Shown one piece after another: positions 24,244-25,823 of a DNA stretch of 64,000 bases (positions within the stretch are counted from its first letter, which is position 1; each line of letters opens with the position of its first letter). The stretch is taken from NCBI RefSeq assembly GCF_030271835.1, contig NZ_CP127389.1:2206001-2270000 (forward strand), in the 5' to 3' direction. The notes below the pieces were generated by a model, which had not been told where the DNA came from, made no database searches, and saw nothing but the letters and a program-made list of their open reading frames with translations. The DNA comes from Proteus appendicitidis. Lineage in GTDB: Bacteria > Pseudomonadota > Gammaproteobacteria > Enterobacterales > Enterobacteriaceae. The position numbers and the translations under genes are program-made.

Positions 24244-25029
24244 TTAATCGTTATAAGCTGCTAATACATGCTGACATAATGTAGAGCGTACACAATCTTC
24301 TTGCATAAATTTAATCACACCCACTCGATTATTAGCCTTAAATCGAATCAAACCATCCGCTAATCCAGACGGTACATTTGCAGGTAAATCACACTGTGTA
24401 ATATCTCCATTAACCACAACGGTGACATTTTCCCCCATTCTGGTGAGAAATAATTTCATTTGATTGACAGTAACATTCTGCGCTTCGTCTAAAATAACAA
24501 ATGCATTTTCGAAAGTACGACCTCGCATATAAGCGAAAGGCGCAATTTCGACTTTACCGATTTCAGGTCGTAAACAATATTGTAAGAATGAAGCGCCTAA
24601 ACGTTTAACTAATACGTCGTAGACAGGACGAAAATAGGGTGCAAACTTTTCAGCAATATCACCAGGTAAGAAACCGAGATCTTCATCCGCCTGCAACACA
24701 GGTCGAGTAACAATGATACGTTCTATTTCTTTGTTAATTAAGGCATCGGCTGCCATTGCAGTACTGAGAAAGGTTTTACCACAGCCCGCTTCTCCTGTAG
24801 CAAAAATAAGATCTTGATGTTTAATTGCATTCATATATTGGCGTTGTACTTCATTGCGAGGAGATAACACACGTTCATCACGTTTTTCTCTCGCCATACC
24901 AATAGTATTGATATCCCCAAATCCCGGTAAAACCATAACATTATCTCGATGCGCCCCATTACGTTGTTCTTTACGTGAGGTGCGTTTATTTTCTCGGCGT
25001 AAACGTGTTGCTGCTTTTTGTCTACTCAT
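24244..25029 (-). CDS. phoH: PhoH, phosphate-starvation-inducible ATPase
   Basis: 261-aa cytoplasmic P-loop ATPase. Walker A GEAGCGKT lies near residue 80 and Walker B VILDEAQN near 175; the long block around RPVLQADEDLGFLPGDIAEK is almost identical to remembered E. coli PhoH. The first 35 residues are strongly basic (RLRRENKRTSRKEQR). RBS AAGGGT lies about 10 nt upstream. PhoH-family proteins are linked to RNA metabolism, but the exact role is unsettled. A Pho box at 25275-25292 shows PhoB control, and a strong terminator lies inside the leader between that promoter and the start codon. Confidence 0.93.
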   Translation of the reverse strand: MSRQKAATRLRRENKRTSRKEQRNGAHRDNVMVLPGFGDINTIGMAREKRDERVLSPRNEVQRQYMNAIKHQDLIFATGEAGCGKTFLSTAMAADALINKEIERIIVTRPVLQADEDLGFLPGDIAEKFAPYFRPVYDVLVKRLGASFLQYCLRPEIGKVEIAPFAYMRGRTFENAFVILDEAQNVTVNQMKLFLTRMGENVTVVVNGDITQCDLPANVPSGLADGLIRFKANNRVGVIKFMQEDCVRSTLCQHVLAAYND

Positions 25030-25135
25030 AGTGGTATTTACCCTTGTTAGTCTTCAAAAAGTCATCGACATCTCTGTTTGTATTCCATTCACTTACCGAT
25101 GAGTCCCCTTCAGACTCTGTTTAGTCGCAGAAAAC

Positions 25136-25193
25136 AAAAAAACCGGTCACAATCCTGAACATTAAACATCAATGAACGGTTGTTGCCGGTTTT
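25136..25193 (-). terminator. Strong intrinsic terminator inside the phoH leader
   Basis: Read leftward, AAAACCGG (from 25193) pairs with CCGGTTTT (to 25139), and an inner stem of about six pairs (ACAATC with GGTTGT) extends it. The RNA would end CCGG followed by seven U. It lies about 110 nt before the phoH ATG and about 60-120 nt after the predicted start site. It could release a short RNA or act as an attenuator. Confidence 0.8.
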
Positions 25194-25258
25194 CTGTGAG
25201 TAACGAGATATTTCCATTGCTTCTATCATTCATATTCCCCATCATGGAGTTAGAGTGA

Positions 25259-25292
25259 AAATTAACGAAGCTTTATGACAGTATAATGACAA
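25259..25292 (-). promoter_or_regulatory. Pho box and promoter of phoH
   Basis: On the minus strand TTGTCAT-TATA-CTGTCAT (25292 to 25275) gives two direct 7-bp repeats with a 4-bp spacer, close to the consensus CTGTCAT-N4-CTGTCAT. A weak -10, TAATTT (25264-25259), follows at the right distance, placing the start site near 25252. Confidence 0.85.
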
Positions 25293-25379: not shown

Positions 25380-25823
25380 ATGAATTTCTTGCGATTACCT
25401 TTTATTTATTGGTTACTACTTAACCTAATTCCATTTATTGGCTTTGAACTTCATTCTGGCTCTCTCAAAATGGGCTTCTTTTTTTACCTCGGTTTACTCA
25501 CCATTACCACTTCTGGGATCTGGCTTTTTTATTGCCTCTCATTTTTTATTAAACAAAAAACATCGCCTAATCCCAATCACACACCACGACAATTAGTAAC
25601 AAATGGCCCTTATAAAATAAGTCGCAATCCTATGTATCTTGGTTTCTTAGATATTAGTATCGGGCTATTTTTTATTTTTGGTAATTGGGGATTTTTGGGC
25701 GCGGCTATTGCGTTTTATTTTATTACTGATCGCTATACGATAATACGTGAAGAGAAAATCTTAAGTGAATTATTTCCACAAGCGTGGCAACAATATTGTC
25801 GCCACGTTCGTCGTTGGATGTAA
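25380..25823 (+). CDS. Isoprenylcysteine methyltransferase-like membrane protein
   Basis: 147-aa integral membrane protein. The C-terminal half carries the ICMT/PEMT-like signature GPYKISRNPMYLG (near residue 78), the conserved E-E pair in IREEKILSELFPQAWQQY, and a final RHVRRW. Four hydrophobic segments are present. Bacterial members are presumed SAM-dependent methyltransferases with unknown acceptors. GGGGGAG directly before the start is an unusually strong ribosome site. It ends 15 nt before the convergent endonuclease gene. Confidence 0.78.
   Translation: MNFLRLPFIYWLLLNLIPFIGFELHSGSLKMGFFFYLGLLTITTSGIWLFYCLSFFIKQKTSPNPNHTPRQLVTNGPYKISRNPMYLGFLDISIGLFFIFGNWGFLGAAIAFYFITDRYTIIREEKILSELFPQAWQQYCRHVRRWM

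Follow-up and report, generated by a model that had tools for sequence, protein, structure and literature searches.

Comparative anatomy of the phoH leader suggests a pyrBI-like attenuator in Proteus and related genera

Comparison of the phoH leaders of Proteus, Providencia, Morganella and Xenorhabdus indicates that this leader is probably a pyrBI-like attenuator: whether PhoB-driven transcription reaches phoH would depend on the coupling of ribosome and polymerase across a leader open reading frame (ORF). At the level of sequence, the comparison establishes the anatomy of the leader and its conservation, a frame that is kept open and a lack of constraint on the encoded peptide. The gene itself belongs to the Pho regulon and its role is unclear. 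No description of a phoH leader was found in the open-licence PMC library, to which our search extended.

Results

We analysed a 64,000-nt stretch of Proteus appendicitidis DNA (NZ_CP127389.1; host genome 4.1 Mb, one contig), here called the window, in which phoH (24244-25029) encodes a protein of 261 amino acids matching Pfam PF02562 (E 1e-76). Among named records, those nearest in PhoH are from Proteus species. This gene and the leader features upstream of it all lie on the minus strand. The Pho box (TTGTCATTATACTGTCAT, 25275-25292) carries 10/10 core bases in 20/20 Proteus leaders, which bears out an earlier sequence-only reading of this DNA that had seen a near-consensus box here, and supports a PhoB-type promoter. 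Pho promoters of E. coli keep 10 nt between the box and the -10 element. A probable -10 element, TAATTT (25259-25264), lies 10 nt past the 18-bp box, and TANNNT occurs at exactly that place in 66/66 leaders, a promoter spacing that marks phoH as a member of the Pho regulon. A consensus scan also placed a sigma-70-like site, TTGAAA-18-TATACT, across the box. Genome-wide there are 13 exact TGTCA-N6-TGTCA sites, the phoH box among them, compared with 6 for the reversed control pattern; by the criteria of our script, the phoH box is the sole one of the 13 with a hairpin and U tract no more than 330 nt downstream. PhoB binding and regulation have been reported for E. coli phoH in PMC10294691. Further upstream in the window, an other-strand gene with a phospholipid-methyltransferase-like Pfam match (25380-25823) lies between endA and phoH; it holds this place in 20/20 Proteus and in 0/46 loci of the other three genera (Providencia, Morganella and Xenorhabdus).

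Transcription is predicted, from the position of the -10 element, to start at 25251-25256, and a predicted intrinsic terminator follows at 25136-25193. It comprises a hairpin and a U7 tract (25142-25136) ending 106 nt before the phoH ATG (25029), which confirms the early U7 terminator that had been noted about 110 nt ahead of that ATG. Hairpin and U7 together fold at -22.1 kcal/mol (z -3.67), and 0/200 shuffles were equally good; the whole 236-nt leader folded as one is not unusual (z -0.59). The consensus scan did not have the 25193-25136 hairpin among its terminators, probably because of the interrupted stem and long loop. In the 20 Proteus leaders, 5 of the 23 consensus pairs of the stem show two-sided, pairing-preserving changes, any one of which is confined to one or two leaders; such changes affect 0/20 pairs in Providencia, where the core is invariant. 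No known RNA family matched at its gathering threshold anywhere in the window, and two sub-threshold matches in the leader region (E 0.75 and 3.2) were far under the gathering scores and were taken as chance. The consensus scan gave no minus-strand sigma-70-like site between the hairpin and phoH.

The hairpin could in principle be the terminator of the upstream gene endA, homologues of which lie upstream of phoH in 66/66 loci examined. The Pho box, however, stands between endA and the hairpin, and although 20/20 Proteus loci have an other-strand gene between endA and the leader, the spacing from box to terminator is nearly constant. On Proteus synteny we reject this assignment and give it almost no credence.

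The conserved leader ORF (MIEAMEISRYSQKTGNNRSLMFNVQDCDRFFCFLRLNRV) runs from an ATG at 25229 to 25110, and comprises 39 codons and a TGA (25112-25110), with 80 nt left between its end and the phoH ATG. Its predicted ribosome site, GGGGA (25236-25240), pairs with the anti-Shine-Dalgarno (SD) sequence at -5.5 kcal/mol, the value for 19 Proteus leaders; the remaining one has -6.3. The sequence-only reading had picked another frame, of 27 codons (25162-25245), which exists and ends in the hairpin loop as described, but is not the conserved leader ORF. Its ATG, 16 nt upstream of the one at 25229, has SD pairing of +1.3 to +2.1 kcal/mol in the 20 Proteus leaders, and the frame is shortened or altered in five of them (L008, L014, L018, L019 and L020); SD energy and altered frames together rule it out as the leader ORF. 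The want of a clear ribosome site, which had been taken to favour a small RNA, is thus true of the 27-codon frame but arose because the wrong frame had been chosen, and therefore gives a small RNA no support. By equal measure, 8.2% of 1006 window ATGs reach -5 kcal/mol or better, so SD strength alone is moderate evidence. An SD sequence precedes the leader ATG in all four genera and is stronger in Providencia (-5.9 to -11.1). The frame from 25229 is open through the U tract in 19/20 Proteus leaders, L008 stopping within the hairpin.

We collected phoH loci from 20 Proteus genomes, 24/24 Providencia, 6/6 Morganella and 18/30 Xenorhabdus; the other 12/30 Xenorhabdus genomes had no phoH match at the cut-off used. 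Genera were assigned through named records that gave matches at identical coordinates. Counting as a terminator any hairpin with six or more T among eight bases, and as a Pho box any site with 8-10/10 core bases, we found both in 67/68 loci (20/20 Proteus, 24/24 Providencia, 6/6 Morganella and 17/18 Xenorhabdus). The hairpin is thus conserved in relatives, on which the earlier proposal had been made to depend. The one exception, the Xenorhabdus locus L175, has neither element; the region upstream of its phoH, Pho box included, is swapped for other sequence that by eye resembles part of a transposase gene. Pho boxes with 8-10/10 core bases occur in 66/67 parsed leaders of the four genera. Two rows (L029 and L030, paralogue) were dropped, and the ORF-position and frame counts also leave out L174, for which the script parsed no start, and L175, where other sequence stands in place of the leader and there is no Pho box. 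L162 and L164 were left out of the 64-leader frame control, the TANNNT count and the duplex counts. Read separately, the ORF of L162 passes the U tract, whereas those of L164 and L174 end within the hairpin; L174 was judged by eye without folding.

With the exception of L162, the leader ATG lies 61-64 nt past the start of the box in Proteus, Providencia and Morganella; in Xenorhabdus the distance is 55-78 nt, with 69 the commonest value. The 5' arm of the terminator begins 28-40 nt past the ATG in 62/64 leaders; for two Xenorhabdus leaders, in which our script had picked an in-frame ATG further upstream, the distances are 55 and 57 nt. The terminator sits inside the leader ORF, as in a pyrBI-type arrangement: the ORF reaches into the hairpin in 67/67 leaders, continuing beyond the U tract in 50 and stopping within the hairpin in 17.

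Several loci were read outside these counts, namely those of Photorhabdus, L083, L023 and other named Morganellaceae; those compared by coordinates came from genomes already counted. Six Photorhabdus loci keep the Pho box and have other structures in place of the intrinsic terminator. At L076 (Photorhabdus tasmaniensis) there is neither leader ORF nor terminator and 165 nt separate the Pho box from phoH, a natural deletion of the proposed attenuator. Arsenophonus nasoniae (L083) has a 44-codon ORF that reads past a terminator and no clear Pho box. A search of distant DNA gave, in E. coli genomes, a match over only 12% of the query (E 3) and, among plasmid records, two full-length matches, both labelled Proteus mirabilis, the rest being short and weak. 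The Proteus mirabilis records NZ_OL790812.1 and NZ_OL790811.1 of the plasmid collection, about 4.1 Mb each, look like chromosomes. One further phoH copy (G146:C1:2099005-2099775) has two internal TAG codons and is probably a pseudogene.

The open frame was compared with the two alternative frames. Among 64 leaders, the ORF frame was open to the U tract in 49, frame +1 in 0 and frame +2 in 4; for the 52 distinct leaders the figures were 37, 0 and 2. These counts are given without a P value because related genomes are not independent. When frames were followed up to the 5' arm only, the contrast was weaker in some genera, frame +2 being open in 17/20 Proteus leaders and both other frames in most of the five Morganella leaders. 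An ORF placed before and overlapping a terminator also recalls classical attenuation of the trp type, in which a stalled ribosome picks antiterminator or terminator. Such a leader ORF would be expected to end before the terminator, but 0/67 end ahead of the 5' arm and all enter it; the genera have no run of regulatory codons in common; and sequence upstream of the 5' arm paired with it better than shuffles did (p<=0.05) in only 2/64 leaders, which is not above chance and makes a trp-like switch, with its mutually exclusive antiterminator, highly improbable. Coupling of the pyrBI type needs no competing antiterminator, and the same count is consistent with it.

The peptides of the leader ORF differ from genus to genus, and synonymous changes were not in excess in Proteus, Providencia, Xenorhabdus or Morganella, where synonymous shares lay at expectation. 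(The Proteus same-length sets excluded L008 and L014, and the full-length set also L017, L019 and L020; the Providencia set excluded L162, and 8/16 Xenorhabdus leaders were used.) Purifying selection on the peptide is therefore not supported, and the peptide does not appear to be the thing conserved. Since the frame is nevertheless kept open, we infer that translation itself is what is conserved in the leader. Leader translation, one of two options raised in the earlier reading, is thereby supported as the likely switch. Where the ORF reads past the U tract, as in 50 leaders, a terminated RNA would carry no stop codon for it, and the short RNA is then unlikely to yield a small protein.

A free peptide sequence, and the fact that no sensing element was identified, would also suit a fixed throttle, with the terminator cutting phoH expression by a constant factor and leader translation going unregulated. 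A weaker promoter would suffice for that, yet the layout of an ORF running through a terminator is kept in four genera, and we consider such a throttle distinctly unlikely. Unlikely, too, is a reading in which PhoB chiefly induces a small RNA of about 120 nt that acts on other mRNAs, with phoH made by readthrough and the ORF incidental. The strong predicted U7 terminator and the near-invariant 5' part of the leader within Proteus speak for such an RNA, as do the small RNAs derived from 5' untranslated regions that are known in E. coli (PMC7815308). By eye, however, the genera share only the SD-ATG segment and not the stretch from ATG to hairpin, so no common seed, conserved and unpaired, is seen, and the conserved open frame would be left unexplained. 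As a by-product, a small RNA that acts in trans is possible.

Beyond the terminator, a second hairpin, H2 (GAGTCT-GAAGG-GGACTC, 25101-25117), contains the stop codon of the leader ORF. A stem of this type, whose loop has AAGG or a similar sequence at its end, was matched in 131/153 Enterobacterales phoH leaders, mostly about 70-90 nt before phoH and with several pair types at most stem positions, leaving 22/153 without a match; some Xenorhabdus matches at other distances may be chance. For its AAGG loop, H2 was considered as a CsrA site or a second ribosome site, on the generally known consensus.

Outside the Proteus group, a similar SD-ATG opens a long leader frame in 79/86 loci of other Enterobacterales, E. 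coli K-12 included. The start finder favoured an ATG followed by a TCC..GG motif and found no start in the other seven (L098, L120-L124 and L129). A short inverted repeat, GTCC...GGAC, stands right after the leader ATG in many non-Morganellaceae loci, for example past position 693 of L187. Of the 79 leader frames, 45 end ahead of phoH, 14 overlap it out of frame and 20 are fused to it in frame; the unfused frames have 56-118 codons. The leader frame was open for at least 50 codons in 75/75 distinct leaders, and the alternative frames reached that length in 11 and 2. Within 6/79 leaders (L025, L082, L111, L112, L113 and L136), a U tract adjoins a hairpin folding at -12 kcal/mol or better; weaker hairpins of this kind occur in some others. 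The best 70-nt excess of C over G was higher in the leader than in the phoH coding sequence in 79/79 loci, and an excess of 15 was reached by 91% of leaders as against 9.8% of 2868 background stretches of equal length; no leader of the four Proteus-group genera exceeded 11. Such C-rich, G-poor stretches, found in the other Enterobacterales only, are what a Rho site would be expected to look like.

In E. coli K-12 the leader frame is annotated as part of PhoH (354 amino acids), of which it forms the first 92 residues (L187:693-968, NC_000913); the Pfam PhoH match starts at residue 149. Across 12 genomes, the fused extension has no in-frame stops and a synonymous share of 0.363 (expected 0.296), compared with 0.958 for phoH. 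The upstream part in two further enteric sets gave shares of 0.281 (expected 0.288) and 0.235 (expected 0.294), and the short part from H2 to phoH in six Pectobacterium-type loci gave 0.575 (expected 0.282; 40 changes). These 92 N-terminal residues match the leader ORF of relatives and change in a nearly neutral manner, so that translation of E. coli PhoH may in fact begin downstream of the annotated start. A wider reading, which we offer tentatively as conceivable rather than probable, is that phoH in most Enterobacterales is an AND gate, with transcription started by PhoB and early termination escaped only where a ribosome on the leader ORF keeps close behind the polymerase. The start of the ORF would then have been kept while the type of terminator changed, being intrinsic in the Proteus group and of Rho type elsewhere, and in the E. 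coli lineage, where the ORF became fused to phoH, the first 92 residues would be a regulatory leader and no working part of the protein.

Discussion

In the pyrBI-like mechanism that we propose for the four genera, the PhoB-dependent promoter would make a leader whose ribosome site and ATG lie some 22-27 nt past the predicted start and whose ORF contains the 5' arm of the terminator, 28-40 nt past the ATG. A ribosome tight behind the polymerase would enter the 5' arm and block closure of the hairpin, and transcription would continue to phoH; were leader translation late, weak or lagging, closure of the hairpin at the U tract would set free a leader RNA of about 115-121 nt. The signal read would be ribosome-polymerase coupling rather than the peptide. 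By the precedent of pyrBI, termination would be the default and readthrough would follow when the polymerase slows. Firing of the terminator, its block by translation and a coupling that varies with phosphate starvation (for example through a polymerase slowed by low NTP) are what this scheme infers. We conjecture that nucleotide pools may drop in phosphate starvation, in which case the leader could act as a second check on the PhoB signal. Several observations weigh against the scheme: the 17/67 leaders whose ORF stops within the hairpin, a Proteus SD of a strength reached by about 8% of window ATGs, the lack of two-sided changes in the Providencia stem pairs, the six Photorhabdus loci with a Pho box and no such terminator, and L076.

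Known systems share parts of this layout. In pyrBI of E. coli, according to PMC4824070 and PMC5021804, the terminator lies within a 135-bp leader gene (pyrL) and a close ribosome prevents the hairpin; the phoH leader ORF, of 120 bp, likewise contains an intrinsic terminator. It differs in being driven by a Pho box, in a peptide and a stop position that vary among genera, and in ending within the hairpin in 17/67 leaders; pyrBI, moreover, has a UTP-sensitive pause, whereas the evidence on the phoH leader is comparative. The mgtM leader of Salmonella mgtCBR resembles it in being driven by a two-component system, in the importance of transcription-translation coupling and in a leader peptide that is not conserved, but, according to PMC3641672, mgtCBR relies on alternative stem-loops in place of an intrinsic terminator and senses ATP by way of conserved adenines; no such element was seen in the phoH leader. 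The Rho-dependent mdtU and toiL of E. coli, which place an upstream ORF in a leader under premature termination (PMC7815308 and PMC12121999), would offer a parallel to the E. coli phoH leader, should Rho act on it. In these sources MdtU has a conserved C terminus and toiL acts by stalling, whereas the phoH leader peptide shows no constraint.

A terminator within an ORF is also found in arfA of E. coli, where it yields an mRNA without a stop codon, much as termination in most phoH leaders would. The truncated protein is the product in arfA, whereas in the phoH case it would be the downstream gene.

If the model holds, a single leader-ORF design would be combined, depending on the genus, with an intrinsic terminator or a Rho-like stretch, forming a natural series, and the finding would bear on the annotated start of E. 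coli PhoH. Expression of phoH would need transcription-translation coupling besides PhoB, which would point directly to the conditions under which the gene is required.
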